NCBI RefSeq assembly: GCF_003855255.1
Contig: NZ_CP034072.1
Span: 6,841,962 to 6,905,961, forward strand
Length of the DNA: 64,000 bases
Direction: 5' to 3'
Origin: Mycolicibacterium nivoides
Lineage (GTDB): Bacteria > Actinomycetota > Actinomycetes > Mycobacteriales > Mycobacteriaceae
Both the position numbers and the translations under genes were made by a program. Position 1 is the stretch's first letter, and the number at the start of each line of letters is the position of its first letter. The notes under the pieces were generated by a model. That model was not told the DNA's origin and ran no database searches. It worked only from the letters and a program-made list of their open reading frames with translations. Of this stretch, positions 2,843 to 8,846 are shown one piece after another.

Positions 2843-3658
2843 GTGACCACACGTTCTGAGCTGCCGGAGTACAAGACCCTGCGGATCACAGTCGACGAGT
2901 CCGTGGCGATCATCACGTTGGACCGCCCGCAGCAACGCAATGCCTTCGGTGGCGGGATGCGCGAGGAACTGGCCGACGCCTACCTGCGTTGCGACGGCGA
3001 CGACGCCATCCGGGTGATCGTGCTGACCGGCGCCCCGCCCGCGTTCTGCGCGGGCGCGGACCTCGGTGCCGGGGAGCAGACCTTCACCGAGCCGGGTCAG
3101 GAATTCAGCGCCGCGGGCCTGGCCGTGCCGGCCTGGACTCTCGGCAAGCCGGTGATCGCCGCGGTAAACGGACATGCCATCGGCATCGGCCTGACTCTCG
3201 CATTGCAGTGCGACATCCGGTTTTTCGCCGCGGATGCGCGTTATGGCGTGGTGCAGGCCCGTCGCGGTATGGTCGGCGACGCGTACTCGCACTGGATCCT
3301 GCCTCGGCTGGTGGGGCTTGCCAACGCCGCGGAGATCTTGCTGACCGGAGCCACTTTCGACGGGCACCGCGCCGTCGAACTCGGCCTCGGCAGCCGGGTA
3401 CTGCCGGCCGATCAGGTGCTGCCCGCCGCAGTGGAACTCGCACACGACATCGCGGTCAACACCGCACCTATGTCGGTCGCCGCCAGCAAGCGGCTGCTGT
3501 GGGACTCGTATGACCTCGACCGTGCCGGCGTCGGTGCCCGGGAGACAGAGATCCACCTGCGCTTGATGGAGCACGACGACGCGCGCGAAGGGGTGCGTGC
3601 CTACGTCGATCGTCGGGACCCGCGCTGGACAGGGCGGCCCGTGGACCCGACTAGCTGA
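2843..3658 (+). CDS. Enoyl-CoA hydratase/isomerase family protein (crotonase fold)
   Basis: 271-residue crotonase-fold protein that probably acts on an acyl-CoA thioester in the cytoplasm. The GTG at 2843 is chosen because GGGAG sits about 7 bases upstream and the domain begins right after it. CoA/oxyanion-hole elements are visible (DRPQQRNAF near residue 34; APPAFCAGADLG around 65-76; AVNGHAIGIGL around 110). At the position of the usual hydratase QPE glutamate the sequence reads VVQ followed by ARRGMVGDAY, so a classical hydratase reaction is doubtful; mycobacterial echA paralogues are numerous and mostly unassigned. Its 3' end overlaps the convergent pncA gene by 8 bases. Confidence 0.85.
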   Translation: MTTRSELPEYKTLRITVDESVAIITLDRPQQRNAFGGGMREELADAYLRCDGDDAIRVIVLTGAPPAFCAGADLGAGEQTFTEPGQEFSAAGLAVPAWTLGKPVIAAVNGHAIGIGLTLALQCDIRFFAADARYGVVQARRGMVGDAYSHWILPRLVGLANAAEILLTGATFDGHRAVELGLGSRVLPADQVLPAAVELAHDIAVNTAPMSVAASKRLLWDSYDLDRAGVGARETEIHLRLMEHDDAREGVRAYVDRRDPRWTGRPVDPTS

Positions 3659-4220
3659 TTTCCACTCCGGCGCTGCGAAGTTCATCGATTGCCGTCCTGG
3701 AGGTCTCGGGCGCGACACCGGCGGTCAGGCCGGTCAGCACCCGTGTGCGCAGTCCGGCCCTGACCGCGTCGGCCGCGGTGGCCGCCACGCAGTAGTCGGT
3801 GGCGATGCCCACCACGTCCACCGCCTCGACGCCCCGCCGGCCAAGCCAGTCCGCCAGCGTCGTCCCCGAGTCGTCGACGCCCTCGAATCCGCTGTAGGCC
3901 GCCGAATGGTGGCCCTTCTCGAACACCGCCTCGACCGCGGCCGGATCGAACTCGGGATGAAAAGCGGCACCAGGAGTATCGGCCACGCAGTGCCGCGGCC
4001 ATGAGGTCTTGTAGTCGGGGGTGTCGGAGAAATGCTCACCGGGGTCGATGTGAAAATCCTTGGTGGCCACGACATGGTCGTAGCCGTGGTCGGTGGCCAG
4101 GAGTGCGGTGATGTCCCGCGCCACCGCAGCGCCGCCGGCGACCGCCAGCGAGCCGCCTTCGCAGAAATCGTTCTGCACATCGACGACGATGAGTGCCCGA
4201 GTCTGCTTGGACCTCCGCAT
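3651..4220 (-). CDS. pncA: Nicotinamidase/pyrazinamidase PncA
   Basis: Converts nicotinamide to nicotinate for NAD salvage; the mycobacterial enzyme also hydrolyses pyrazinamide. The 189-residue protein is close to the 186-residue M. tuberculosis PncA with a constant +6 offset. The catalytic triad is intact (D14, K102, C144) and so are the four iron ligands (D55, H57, H63, H77). Hallmark strings are VDVQNDFCEGGSLAV, KDFHIDPGEHF and VVGIATDYCV. The six extra N-terminal residues (RRSKQT) suggest that a slightly later start is possible, but no better start codon is visible. The gene is convergent with the crotonase gene and separated by only 10 bases from the next reverse-strand operon, whose last gene lies upstream of it. 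Confidence 0.95.
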   Translation of the reverse strand: MRRSKQTRALIVVDVQNDFCEGGSLAVAGGAAVARDITALLATDHGYDHVVATKDFHIDPGEHFSDTPDYKTSWPRHCVADTPGAAFHPEFDPAAVEAVFEKGHHSAAYSGFEGVDDSGTTLADWLGRRGVEAVDVVGIATDYCVAATAADAVRAGLRTRVLTGLTAGVAPETSRTAIDELRSAGVEIS

Positions 4221-4230
4221 GATCCCGACG

Positions 4231-5517
4231 CTACCCGCCGAACAGCAGGTACAGCCCGGTAAAGGTGTAGCCGACCATCACCAGCATCGTCGCGAGCTGG
4301 CCGGTGAGCTGGTGTTGCTTCGGCAGCAGGCGCAGTGCCCGGTCGTGTGCCGCGATCACGCCGGCGACGTGACCGGCCAGCACGAATCCGACCTTCAGGC
4401 TGGCCAGAAGCGTTGGGTGAACGGACAAGAAGTAGCTGACCTGCACATCGTGGAGCCCGAACAGCAGGATCACCGTCTGCTGGCCCCGCTCCACCAGGTA
4501 GGACAGGTAGTGGGCGAACACGTAGCCGATGACGATGGGGATCAGGGAATGCGCCATCAGCCCCGGCAATTCGCGGCGCAGCCGGCGATCGACCCCGCCG
4601 GTGGTGCGGGTGGCGGCCCAGAACGTGACCGCCACCGTGGTGGCGAACACCAGTAGACCCGTGGTGCGGATCAGGCTGGAGGCCAGCGGGGATCCGGCGT
4701 GCGCGTCGACGAAGTTGCGCCACTGGGGCATGGCCGAGAAGCTGTCGAACGCCGTGGATCCCAACAGGACTGCCAGCACGGCGACGAGCCCCGGTCGCAC
4801 GGGCATCGAGGGCAGGTGATCGAAAGGGTTGCCGAGCACGATCTGACCGTCGTGGCGGCGCAACGGCGACACCCGCGAAGCAACCGTGCTGTACACCTCG
4901 AACGGGTCGGCGCTCTCCAGCCAGCGCTGCCCGCAGCACAGTGCACCGGCCAGCGTCACCGCAAGATAGATCAACAGCCAGGTGCGAATGGCCGCAACCG
5001 ATCCCGGGTCCGGGCCGGCCAGCTCCAGCCACACGAAGGCGAACAGCCCCGCGGCAGCCGGCCAGTAGCCGAGCCGTTCCGGGTAGCGCCGGCGGTCAGG
5101 ACCGGGCAGGAACTGGTACAGCGCGCGGACGGGAGAGATCAGCCGCCAGACCGGGCCGAACAACACCGAGGCCGCGACCAGTCCCACCCACAGCAGGACA
5201 TAGAAGACACCCGGCAGCGGATTGGCGCCCGCCGGCCGGGTGACTGCGGTGTACGCCACCCACCCGGTGAGGGCGAGTGAGAGCAGGCCCACCACCCAGC
5301 GCGTCACGGCGGAGTCCACGGTCGTCGTCACCCAGGACGGCAGTGGCAGGCCCGGCTTCTCCGGATCGAACCTCGGCCGTCGCCAGGCCAGTGCCACCAC
5401 CGCAAAGGTGAACGTCAGCGTCCATGCCGCGCCGATCAGCGCGTAGGTGTAGGGGATCGGGAGATCGGTCGAACCGCCCAGACCATGGGCCAGGACCGCG
5501 GTCGACCGGGGCGTCAC
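4231..5517 (-). CDS. Conserved polytopic membrane protein, last gene of a four-gene membrane operon
   Basis: 428-residue integral membrane protein with roughly ten hydrophobic segments (for example near 24-44, 74-92, 102-122, 150-168, 180-196 and several in the C-terminal half). The loops carry conserved-looking polar stretches: PGPDRRRYPERLGYWP, ESADPFEVYS and GNPFDHLPSMP. The C-terminal helices are histidine-rich (FAHYLSYL, FGLHDVQ, LSVHPTL, LAGHVAG, AAHDRAL), which is unusual for a simple permease and hints at metal or heme binding. Its ATG overlaps the stop of the upstream lipoprotein gene by 4 bases, so the two are translationally coupled. I do not recognise a named family; a transport or assembly role for a metal centre is inference from the operon. 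Confidence 0.8.
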   Translation of the reverse strand: MTPRSTAVLAHGLGGSTDLPIPYTYALIGAAWTLTFTFAVVALAWRRPRFDPEKPGLPLPSWVTTTVDSAVTRWVVGLLSLALTGWVAYTAVTRPAGANPLPGVFYVLLWVGLVAASVLFGPVWRLISPVRALYQFLPGPDRRRYPERLGYWPAAAGLFAFVWLELAGPDPGSVAAIRTWLLIYLAVTLAGALCCGQRWLESADPFEVYSTVASRVSPLRRHDGQIVLGNPFDHLPSMPVRPGLVAVLAVLLGSTAFDSFSAMPQWRNFVDAHAGSPLASSLIRTTGLLVFATTVAVTFWAATRTTGGVDRRLRRELPGLMAHSLIPIVIGYVFAHYLSYLVERGQQTVILLFGLHDVQVSYFLSVHPTLLASLKVGFVLAGHVAGVIAAHDRALRLLPKQHQLTGQLATMLVMVGYTFTGLYLLFGG

Positions 5518-5954
5518 TGCTGCACTTGCACGCTGGCGATCGTGCGGTTCAGCTGATGCAGCTCGATGTCGACGGTGCCGGGCACGTCGACGGTGAACTG
5601 GAACTGCTGACCGTTACGCGGCTCGATCTTGAAGCTGTGCTCGGGATTGGAGTGCACGTGCAGCTCGTCGGCGGCGTCGCTGTTTACGCGCACCACGATC
5701 GGCTCGCCGACCTTGCCCTTCAGCGGCTGGTTGGTCGGGGTGACCTCGCCGCCCTTGATGGTGACGTCGATCAGCAGCCTGGTCGGCGCCTGCTGCTGGT
5801 TGGTCATGTCCGACGGATTGACCGTGGTGGCCGAAGGAGTGGCGGAACCGGCTGAGCCGTCGGTCTTCTGAGTCTCGCCGGAGCCGCCACAACCGGCCGT
5901 CACCAGGGCGAGAACGGACGCCAGGACGATGACACTGCATTTGAGGTTGATCAC
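5514..5954 (-). CDS. Lipoprotein with cupredoxin-like beta domain
   Basis: 146-residue secreted lipoprotein: hydrophobic signal followed by lipobox VTAGC with Cys22 as the acylation site, a Ser/Thr-rich linker (about 23-55), then a beta-sandwich of about 90 residues. The domain carries strands LLIDVTIKGGEVTP, EPIVVRVNSDAADELHVHS and TVDVPGTVDIELHQ. This is the pattern of cupredoxin-like domains, with HVH and ELH histidines at places where blue-copper folds hold ligands, but the usual Cys/Met ligands are not evident. It should sit on the outer face of the cytoplasmic membrane and could deliver or sense a metal for the membrane partners. It overlaps both neighbouring genes by 4 bases. Confidence 0.82.
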   Translation of the reverse strand: MINLKCSVIVLASVLALVTAGCGGSGETQKTDGSAGSATPSATTVNPSDMTNQQQAPTRLLIDVTIKGGEVTPTNQPLKGKVGEPIVVRVNSDAADELHVHSNPEHSFKIEPRNGQQFQFTVDVPGTVDIELHQLNRTIASVQVQQ

Positions 5955-6148
5955 GGTGAACCATCTTCGCCTGAGAGGTCGACACCTTCATCTTGAGTAT
6001 TGTCATCCGGCTCGCGGCTGTCGTCATTACGCGGCTCGCCGCGGCGGTCCCGCATGGCGATGTACACCACGACACCCACCACGACGAGGGCCGGAGCGAA
6101 GGCGGGCAACGCCAGCAGCAACGTGTGGTCGGCCTGGTACTGGATCAT
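5951..6148 (-). CDS. Small single-pass membrane protein of the four-gene operon
   Basis: 65 residues: a short N-terminus, one membrane helix (about residues 10-32, LLLALPAFAPALVVVGVVVY) and a charged, mostly acidic cytoplasmic tail (DRRGEPRNDDSREPDD and on). Length and layout resemble small subunits of membrane complexes such as CcoQ or CydX-like proteins, but there is no sequence-level match I can claim. Start and stop overlap the flanking genes by 4 bases each, which argues strongly that it is real and made in fixed ratio with them. Confidence 0.75.
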   Translation of the reverse strand: MIQYQADHTLLLALPAFAPALVVVGVVVYIAMRDRRGEPRNDDSREPDDNTQDEGVDLSGEDGSP

Positions 6149-7977
6149 GCGAGCTCGGCGGGTTCACGCCCCGCGGCCAGCTCCCTGGCATTGATCCGGC
6201 CGGCACCCCAGGTCAGCCCCGCGATCAGGATCAGCGTGCACACCAGGACCACCAGCGAAGCCACGTTGTACAGCCAGGTCGGGTGATCGAGGTTGCGTTC
6301 GCGCTGCAGGATCGTGATCTCCTGCACGAACTCCCGGGTGTTCGACGACAGCGCAGGCGTCTCGGCGGCACCGATACCCGGGTCGGCGGGCAGGAAGATC
6401 GGCACACCGGCCATGGTGGTTCCGTCCTGCACGCGCAGCAGGGTCTTCCAACTGCCCGAAACCGGGATGGGCTGCGTCGAGCGGTAGTGCCCCGGGCCCA
6501 CCTTCTCCAACCGGTCGATGACCAGGCCGCGATGGTTGGCCAGGCCACCCTGCCACGCCAGGATCGACACCCACTCCGGGTCGTCGCCGACCAGGCCGGG
6601 CGGGGTGATCTGGACGTCGGCCGAGGCCATGCGGTGCCCGTTGTCAGCCGGGAGGTCCGTCAAAGTGATGGTGGCACTGGCATTTTGCGGAACCTCGGTG
6701 CGCAGCCCGTTGGCCACCGCGCCCCCGATGACCAGCACGGTGGCCACCACGATGGAGATCCCCACCGCGGGCCGGGGGAGCGGCTGACCGGTGAGCACCA
6801 GCGCCAGCAGCGCGCCGCACAGACCCATCGCGACGGCCACCGGGATGGCCATGGCCAGCGCCTCACCCCACATGCTGGTCGGCCACGGGTAGTGATAGAC
6901 CGCGCCGATCCACAACGACTCCAGCCACAGTCCGACGGTCGCCACGCCGAGACCGGCCACCGCGCCGAAAAGGATGGGCCGCTTGACAAGCGGGGTCAGC
7001 GCGATGAGTTCGACCACCAGTGCGGGGCCGAGGTAGAGCGCGAACCAACTCGTCGGTGCACCGAGTACCGGGCCGACGATGAAGGCCACGGCCCCGCGCA
7101 GGGCTATCGCGAACCCGGCGGCGATCAAGGCCGCGCCCGGGCCCAGTACCAGTCGCGCAGCGACCGCGGCCAGCGCCGCGGCGCCCGCGATCATCATCGG
7201 CTGCAGTACCAGGCGGAACTGCTCGACGCCGAAGTCGTATTCGATCTGGAACACCGAGAGTCCGATGAACAGGCCGCCGAAGGACAGGAAGTAGAGGAAC
7301 TTGTTGAACTTGCTGTCCTCACCCACGCTTTCCGGGCCCATCGCGACCCTGCCCTCGTGCTCCAGCAGGAGCACGGCGATCAACGACAATCCCGCACCGC
7401 CGATCAGCATCAAATGCGTTGGCCCCCAGAGGGTGACGTCCTGGCCGAAGATGCGGTGCCAGATGTCGTCCAGCGGGAACCCGATGAGGGCGTAGAGCCC
7501 GCACAGCGCCATCAGGACACCGCCGACCGGGGCGTACCAGGTGCGGGTGATCCTGATGGCGGCCGGGCCGGGCTTGTCGTAGGGCAGCACGATGGCCATC
7601 GAACCGGCGATGAACAGCAGGAACAGCCCGATCAGGATGAAGTAGTGCGCGGGGTTGGCCAGCGGTCCGGCGTCACGTCCCTTGCCGATGTGCAGGCTGA
7701 CGTCCCAGATGAAGCCGAACAGCGCGCAGATGATGGTCGCGGTGAACAGGAACACCTGCAACGCGACCCACGGCGGCCGGTGGAACTTGCGGCCCAGCCA
7801 TTCGGCGAAGTTGTTCAGCCAGGTGATGCGCCGGTTGCGGTGCAGGTAGCCGATCCACAGGAGTGCGACCGTGACGATCAGGGCGACCACCGACATGCCG
7901 ATCACCTGATCGAGTGCGGCACCACCGCCTTCCGTGCCGGCGGCTGCGGTGAGCGTGACATCCGATGTGCCCATCAT
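6145..7977 (-). CDS. Large polytopic membrane protein with duplicated Asp/His motif and C-terminal exported domain
   Basis: First gene of the operon, 610 residues. About twelve membrane helices (first near 28-46, last of the bundle near 405-425) are followed by an exported beta-rich domain (about 430-560; GPGHYRSTQPIPVSGSWKTL resembles YtkA/FixH-type domains) and a final helix (571-593). Two helix-loop units carry the same pattern, D92-x3-H96-x5-D102-x8-H111 and D170-x3-H174-x5-D180-x7-H188, each followed by a short LIG helix start. Such paired His/Asp sets suggest a metal or heme site. The start is either ATG 7977 or the adjacent ATG 7974; GGAGG is 2 bases before the first and 5 before the second, which favours 7974. 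Function unknown; a role in copper or oxidase biogenesis is inference. Confidence 0.85.
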   Translation of the reverse strand: MMGTSDVTLTAAAGTEGGGAALDQVIGMSVVALIVTVALLWIGYLHRNRRITWLNNFAEWLGRKFHRPPWVALQVFLFTATIICALFGFIWDVSLHIGKGRDAGPLANPAHYFILIGLFLLFIAGSMAIVLPYDKPGPAAIRITRTWYAPVGGVLMALCGLYALIGFPLDDIWHRIFGQDVTLWGPTHLMLIGGAGLSLIAVLLLEHEGRVAMGPESVGEDSKFNKFLYFLSFGGLFIGLSVFQIEYDFGVEQFRLVLQPMMIAGAAALAAVAARLVLGPGAALIAAGFAIALRGAVAFIVGPVLGAPTSWFALYLGPALVVELIALTPLVKRPILFGAVAGLGVATVGLWLESLWIGAVYHYPWPTSMWGEALAMAIPVAVAMGLCGALLALVLTGQPLPRPAVGISIVVATVLVIGGAVANGLRTEVPQNASATITLTDLPADNGHRMASADVQITPPGLVGDDPEWVSILAWQGGLANHRGLVIDRLEKVGPGHYRSTQPIPVSGSWKTLLRVQDGTTMAGVPIFLPADPGIGAAETPALSSNTREFVQEITILQRERNLDHPTWLYNVASLVVLVCTLILIAGLTWGAGRINARELAAGREPAELA

Positions 7978-8051: not shown

Positions 8052-8846
8052 TCAGCTCCATGGCGTGACGGGACGCTCCTTGCGTTCGCCGTCGACGAAG
8101 ACGTCGACCCGTTCGTCGAAGAAGCAGATGTGGTCGCGGACCTGCACCGCGTCGATCAAGGGCTCGTGATAGGACCAGGCCAGATCGGCGGGTCCACCGG
8201 GCAGTGAATAGTAGGTGGCCCGTCCTTTGTACGCGCAGTACGTGACGGTGTCGCTCACGTCGAGAACGGCGGTCACGTCTTCGCGGGGGAGATAGTGACG
8301 GGTGGGTAGTCCGGTCTCGAATAGCAACATGGGACTGCAGGATTCGGCCAGCACCTTCCCGTCTATCTCGATGCGGATGCGCCGTCGGCTGCGCCGGATG
8401 TCGATCCGGTGGAACGGATCGTGCGGGTGCGCGACGATCGGCTCGTCCTCCTCGCGCCATTCGAAGGTCGCGAAGTCCAGGATCACGTAGTCGGCCAGTT
8501 CCGGATCGTCCGGCCGAAACGCCGCCGCGGCGCCGGTTTCGTCACCGGCGATGACGTCGAACGCCGTTCCGGGACACGTGTGCGCGGTGAACGGCACCGA
8601 AGGGTCGAGGAACCCGGGGATCTCGTCGTCGCCCACATCCCCGCCTGCCGGGACGAGCTGTGCCGCAAATGCCGAACGCGGCACGGCGTACGTCGGCACC
8701 ACCCGCCGCGGCTCCCAGATCAGGACCGCCTCACCGGTATCGGCGACCGGCTCGCCGCCCAGGCAGATCCGAATTCGTTTGGCAGTGGGCTGGTATCGCA
8801 GAGCGCCCAGGTTGCGGCCCAGCAGATCATCCATTTTCACTGCCAT
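8052..8846 (-). CDS. DUF427 protein with two tandem domains
   Basis: 264-residue protein made of two DUF427 (CYCXC-type beta) modules. The first covers about residues 20-110 and is degenerate (RIRICLGGEPVADTGEAVLI); the second covers about 160-250 and holds the full signature (RRIRIEIDGKVLAES, TRHYLPREDV, TYCAYKGRATYYSLPGG, LAWSYHEP). DUF427 proteins are widespread in actinobacteria and have no agreed function. A single-domain paralogue is found at 24235-24594. The gene sits 75 bases upstream of the four-gene membrane operon and is separated from it by a gap without a clear terminator, so co-transcription is possible but not shown. Confidence 0.88.
   Translation of the reverse strand: MAVKMDDLLGRNLGALRYQPTAKRIRICLGGEPVADTGEAVLIWEPRRVVPTYAVPRSAFAAQLVPAGGDVGDDEIPGFLDPSVPFTAHTCPGTAFDVIAGDETGAAAAFRPDDPELADYVILDFATFEWREEDEPIVAHPHDPFHRIDIRRSRRRIRIEIDGKVLAESCSPMLLFETGLPTRHYLPREDVTAVLDVSDTVTYCAYKGRATYYSLPGGPADLAWSYHEPLIDAVQVRDHICFFDERVDVFVDGERKERPVTPWS

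Follow-up and report, generated by a model that had tools for sequence, protein, structure and literature searches.

Gene organization of the locus

Our analysis concerns a stretch of 64,000 nucleotides from Mycolicibacterium nivoides (contig NZ_CP034072.1, positions 6,841,962 to 6,905,961 of the forward strand), referred to as a whole as the window, and in particular four reverse-strand genes within it that we designate A, B, C and D (Table 1). The product of gene A is very probably homologous to the copper membrane monooxygenase (CuMMO) superfamily, in which it appears to join a PmoC-like and a PmoA-like part in a single chain. The genome is a single 6.9-Mb contig, and its D protein is 98% identical to that of Mycolicibacterium septicum (locus L002). 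The initial annotation of this DNA had described the four genes as overlapping by 4 bases at each junction, and their coordinates and lengths were confirmed together with the overlaps at all three A-B-C-D junctions, which read ATGA, GTGA and GTGA. Comparison of A, B, C and D with Pfam and NCBIfam gave no match naming any function, and sequence profile searches of the PDB with A, C and D gave no meaningful match.

Table 1. Features of the A-B-C-D locus and its neighbours, in positions of the window.
Feature	Position	Strand	Basis
Gene A, 610 aa, C-terminal beta domain; proposed relative of PmoC and PmoA in a single chain	6145-7977	(-)	ORF
PmoC-like half of A, residues ~20-215	7333-7920	(-)	hhalign vs PmoC
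Motif 1 of A, G88..D92-x3-H96-x4-R101-D102..H111, proposed counterpart of PmoC CuC ligands	7645-7716	(-)	alignment
Motif 2 of A, D170-x3-H174-x5-D180-x5-P186-x-H188, proposed counterpart of PmoC CuD ligands	7414-7482	(-)	alignment
Membrane half of A resembling PmoA, residues ~216-425; structural match best over 220-397	6703-7332	(-)	
Beta domain of A, residues ~430-555, without conserved His/Cys	6313-6690	(-)	
Gene B, 65 aa, one-helix protein, conserved ADH...ALPAFAPA	5951-6148	(-)	ORF
Gene C, 146 aa, cupredoxin-like lipoprotein; conserved His99, His101, His133	5514-5954	(-)	ORF
HVH motif of C, residues 99-101	5652-5660	(-)	
Gene D, 428 aa, polytopic	4231-5517	(-)	ORF
Isochorismatase/nicotinamidase-like gene, start 10 bases after D	3651-4220	(-)	
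DUF427 protein (PF04248, two stretches), upstream of A, same strand	8052-8846		

PmoC copper-ligand motifs and their proposed counterparts in A

The copper ligands of PmoC are Asp156, His160 and His173 at the CuC site and Asn227, His231 and His245 at the CuD site, as given in PMC12576850. Nine PmoC sequences were compared with A. Two came from actinobacterial genomes found through Pfam PF04896 (2 of 3 genome matches used), and plasmid records supplied the other seven (7 of 10 matches used); a search for PmoC in phages and viral contigs gave no match. All nine share the motifs D-x3-H-x4-R-D-x6-H and N-x3-H-x5-E-x5-P-x-H, separated by 71-74 residues.

The alignment of A proteins, which includes relatives down to 29% identity, contains two invariant blocks, G88..D92...H96..G100-R-D..H111 and D170..WH174..G178.D180..W184.P186.H188. 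The first has the form D-x3-H-x4-RD with its final histidine one or two residues later than in PmoC, and the second, located 76-78 residues after the first in nearly all A proteins, has internal spacing identical to that of PmoC, with the CuD-type histidine pair (H174, H188) kept and the asparagine replaced by Asp170. Our homology searches scored 6509 and 5728 relatives among 8000 candidates each, and the counts below refer to 240 listed homologues of A and 120 of D. A close homologue of A, 82% identical, is present in Mycolicibacterium smegmatis mc2 155. D92, H96 and H111 are invariant in the 81 aligned A sequences and present in all 240 listed homologues. A joint pattern of both motifs was found in 240/240 listed A homologues and 9/9 PmoCs, in 0/120 listed D homologues and 0/6 PmoAs, and in 23 of the 641 open reading frames (ORFs) from the collected loci, every one of which is A among the 23; as this pattern was composed after both families had been viewed, these counts are a description of its specificity, and the shuffle comparison reported below is the independent test.

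Profile-profile alignment with hhalign paired A with PmoC through both motifs, with P 8.9e-4 for the 81 A sequences and 4.3e-4 for 14 distant ones. The N-terminal half of A alone scored 35.6 against PmoC (P 1.8e-4), a value reached by none of 200 shuffled controls in which the hydrophobic pattern was kept (maximum 23.7), and the reversed sequence scored 13.4. D, taken as a control membrane family, gave P 0.33 against PmoC and 0.31 against A. When HMMER was run with its filters off, the top matches of the PmoC profile fell on residues 66-151 of A proteins (best E 4.3e-4), and matches with E<1 were obtained for 54/240 listed A and 11/120 listed D proteins. The motifs were paired by profile methods alone, and remained unpaired when PmoC and A were aligned directly with MAFFT. 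The Pfam AmoC model does not recognise A: at E 10 the protein of the window matched no Pfam family, and AmoC was absent from the best 25 of the 36 Pfam families matched by the 81 A proteins. A search of this genome for a classical AmoC gene (PF04896) gave none at E 0.01.

The PmoA-like half and beta domain of A

In the AlphaFold model of A, some 13 long helices are accompanied by a beta domain (approximately residues 430-555), with the final helix spanning 567-601, in agreement with the earlier description of a 13-helix protein. Structure comparison matched the second half to the PmoA fold, best at residues 220-397, and did not place A in any transporter family. The PmoA profile, again with HMMER filters off, gave matches with E<1 to A proteins only (9/240 listed A, 0/120 listed D and the A protein of locus L169), at residues ~318-387 in full-length ones. 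Conserved residues in this half include E246, D248, R275, R294, E323 and E353.

The initial annotation had assigned an exported YtkA/FixH-like domain to A; the model does place a beta domain in this region, but its likeness to those families is weak, as FixH matched 11/81 A-family members (best E 0.11) and YtkA 1/81 (E 0.19). No sequence relation of A to PmoB was found. The only histidines conserved in all 81 A sequences are H96, H111, H174 and H188, and the beta domain has no histidine or cysteine conserved across this set, a pattern indicating that A keeps the CuC and CuD histidines and nothing like a CuB site. Alternatively, A could be an unrelated 13-helix membrane enzyme, such as an envelope glycosyltransferase of the GT-C type, with a multi-helix membrane part, an acidic motif in an outer loop and a C-terminal beta domain; the likeness to PmoC and PmoA would then be convergence, an explanation that we consider very unlikely.

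Features of genes B, C and D

All 26 B ORFs inspected carry A-D/H-H followed by PAF.PA. In M. chubuense NBB4 and M. dioxanotrophicus, the operons for hydrocarbon monooxygenase encode a small protein after the B subunit (L185 6237-6452; L193 3319-3615); it is apparently a one-helix protein with LAHGGQ near its N-terminus, and this layout resembles that of gene B.

The description of C as a lipoprotein with HVH and ELH was confirmed: it has a lipobox LVTAGC (Cys22, read by eye), and its HVH and ELH occupy residues 99-101 and 131-133, a combination that is not known as the plastocyanin ligand set. Searches with C against Pfam at E 10 and against the PDB by profile at E 10 gave no match, single-sequence matches to nitrite reductases were weak (best E 0.1), and no relation to PmoB was detectable (P 0.099) despite the HVH.

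In D, His11, Glu165, Asp258, His336, His383 and His391 are invariant in 23 aligned relatives. Several close D homologues bear the public database name 'Fenitrothion hydrolase'; no literature link between this name and a D-type membrane protein was found, the three papers in which it occurs being insect microbiome work as judged by title, and the label appears unsupported here.

Conservation of the module across genomes

Eighty loci from named genomes were collected by their match to D and used to count the presence of A, B and C, and they show the four-gene grouping to be more than chance. A was found in 78/80 with the order A-B-C-D kept, and was missing from a 4.5-kb contig (L028) and from a Nocardioides metagenome-assembled genome carrying C and D (L081). 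In all 78 loci with A, a B-type and a C-type ORF (picked by script) lie between A and D, the exact 4-base B/C overlap being present in 64/78, while tblastn with the B protein of the window found B in fewer loci (72/80). Among 201 Mycobacteriaceae genomes, D occurred in 66, A in 62 and neither in 135; D was present in every genome with A (62/62), the two starts lay within 5 kb in 61/62, and D without A was seen in 4/66, one of the four being a short piece. For this co-occurrence of A and D the Fisher P is 1e-47, uncorrected for kinship. One genome (G074) has two D genes, of which one lies away from its A gene.

A wider sample of 296 genomes of the phylum contained D in 55 and A in 35, and 41 of the 55 genomes with D lacked A (hand count). 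Outside Mycobacteriaceae (287 genomes) the A-D association was not significant (P 0.16; both genes in 7, A alone in 21, D alone in 41), and the two genes were adjacent in only one of the seven genomes with both (G214; read from coordinates). Gene calling in distant loci, with a crude caller and 20 loci fetched for each gene, placed a C-profile match directly upstream of D in 9/19 loci where D was called and directly upstream of A in 0/19 where A was called. These adjacency and association results indicate that the module of four genes is a feature of Mycobacteriaceae and their near relatives, and that A and the C-D parts are separate elsewhere. The unit proposed in the initial annotation is therefore conserved in Mycobacteriaceae, but its A and D genes stand apart in other actinobacterial families.

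This distribution can also be interpreted as reflecting a system consisting mainly of C and D, in which a cupredoxin and a polytopic partner serve cofactor assembly or electron transfer and A is an accessory in Mycobacteriaceae. The placement of C matches upstream of D in distant loci and the greater frequency of D than of A in the phylum sample agree with such a system, but D without A is rare in Mycobacteriaceae and A without D exists elsewhere, and we judge this interpretation very unlikely, on a par with the glycosyltransferase alternative.

Proposed function of A

The fused architecture of A, the conservation of its ligands and the Mycobacteriaceae gene module are well supported; copper as the metal, O2 activation, catalysis and the parts played by B, C and D are inferred. 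The reading that we favour as the probable one is that A is a single-chain divergent CuMMO relative whose copper site activates O2, with C, B and D as its partners; that A is a catalytic oxygenase is itself predicted with somewhat better than even confidence. Copper, previously suggested as the metal, is retained as the best guess. The relation of A to PmoC and PmoA makes an O2-activating copper enzyme the likeliest function, in place of the metal movement or cofactor assembly suggested earlier.

According to this proposal, approximately the first six helices of A would form the PmoC part with both copper-ligand triads kept and the next seven the PmoA part, and the extracellular beta domain, anchored by one helix, would stand in PmoB's place but lack CuB-type histidines. 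A copper ion would be held in a membrane site of Asp92/His96/His111 and Asp170/His174/His188, at an interface like that of PmoC and PmoA, where it would activate O2 and hydroxylate a small or lipophilic substrate. Lipoprotein C (through His99, His101 and His133) may supply copper or electrons from the outside, one-helix B may pack against A and D would be a membrane partner for copper loading or electron supply; electrons would arrive via C and/or D, and the product would exit within the membrane.

The HHalign probabilities of the A-PmoC pairing stay at 23-48%, so that this alignment on its own is suggestive. No substrate pathway could be linked to A, which is consistent with A being a true PmoC/PmoA relative that is not an oxygenase and instead, as a copper-binding or transfer protein or a sensor, handles envelope copper with C and D. 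There are known cases of lone pmoC and amoC genes, whose products could bind copper, C is cupredoxin-like, and the D family occurs without A in many actinobacteria (as in the phylum sample above). Yet the full conservation of both PmoC triads, and of the further charged residues E246, D248, R275, R294, E323 and E353 buried in the PmoA half, would exceed the needs of a copper carrier, and this alternative is considered unlikely, while being the most credible of the three.

Extending the oxygenase proposal, we give about an even chance to the view that A represents a fused PmoC-PmoA branch of the CuMMO superfamily, widespread in actinobacteria and without the PmoB CuB site, served in mycobacteria by C, B and D and acting on neither methane nor ammonia but on some other substrate, perhaps a small hydrocarbon or a lipid of the envelope. 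The neighbourhoods of A genes outside Mycobacteriaceae (105/129 ORFs within 3.5 kb scanned; crude gene caller) revealed no recurrent pathway among the best 25 of 139 families, and the 10 scanned D neighbours had nothing notable in common. Two distant A genes have fatty acid desaturase genes in their vicinity (including L171 6368-7354) and another has an acyl-CoA dehydrogenase gene, which possibly hints at a lipid substrate or may be chance. The same 105 ORFs included one match to PpoB2 (DUF2182, 'copper chaperone'). Two A genes were observed at different places in six genomes (G315, G338, G354, G272, G226 and G274), and such paralogues may differ in substrate.

Neighbouring genes

The nicotinamidase-like gene following D is co-directional and no more than 100 bases from the stop of D in 49/80 related loci, located elsewhere in 14/80 and not found in 17/80. 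It probably shares a transcript with the module and is outside the proposed A-B-C-D complex. The DUF427 gene ends 74 bases before A and is found beside A in the closest relatives only.

Comparison with known systems

The active copper site of particulate methane monooxygenase (pMMO) and ammonia monooxygenase (AMO) has long been disputed between CuB in PmoB and CuC/CuD in PmoC. A shift from CuB to CuC and CuD is reported in PMC12576850. A family having all the CuC/CuD histidines and a PmoA fold in one chain, but lacking those of CuB, would amount to a natural experiment bearing on this dispute, and a single-chain A may be simpler to express than the three-subunit pMMO. If A is an enzyme, it would represent an unrecognised CuMMO branch in ordinary soil bacteria. 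Very common mycobacteria, both soil-dwelling and opportunistic, would then have a possible copper oxygenase, as would other actinobacteria with no known use of methane or ammonia.

CuMMO genes form xmoCAB operons with occasional lone xmoC (PMC6215863). The accessible portions of PMC6215863 and PMC12533140 contain no mention of fusion, nor does that of PMC9038741 contain the word 'fused', and no account of a single-chain PmoC-PmoA protein was found in the literature searched, with preprints and most subscription papers outside the search. A precedent for CuMMOs distant from known ones in soil organisms is provided by the soil archaea Angelarchaeales, whose A, B and C proteins show 16.7, 8.0 and 14.2% mean identity to bacterial ones and whose loci include an additional small gene, X, with blue copper proteins close by; unlike the fused A, these are separate A, B and C genes in the order C-A-X-B with the B-site histidines kept (Diamond et al. 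2022, PMC9038741).

C resembles the cupredoxins (PF13473, PF00127) in being a small exported beta protein with conserved histidines, but lacks their Pfam match. Upstream of one distant actinobacterial A gene, a same-strand lipoprotein of the PF13473/PF00127 kind, with a Cupredoxin_1 domain (L173 7138-7773; E 7.8e-8), lies just before A and is not C.

With the copper membrane monooxygenases (pMMO, AMO and the actinobacterial butane/hydrocarbon monooxygenase), A shares both PmoC ligand motifs in the same order and with near-identical spacing, and the PmoA fold in its second half. It differs from XmoCAB in having the PmoC- and PmoA-like parts in one ORF, whereas xmoC, xmoA and xmoB are three separate genes, in the aspartate at the position of the CuD asparagine, in a PmoA half that is unrecognisable by sequence and in a beta domain without CuB histidines, whereas PmoB has cupredoxin domains together with the CuB histidines. 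As defined by separate subunits, PmoB with its CuB site and the Pfam model, the characterised three-gene XmoCAB family does not include A. The initial annotation had known no characterised counterpart; the relation of A's membrane part to PmoC and PmoA now offers one, and A is best regarded as a divergent fused relative of XmoCAB that probably works in a similar way.

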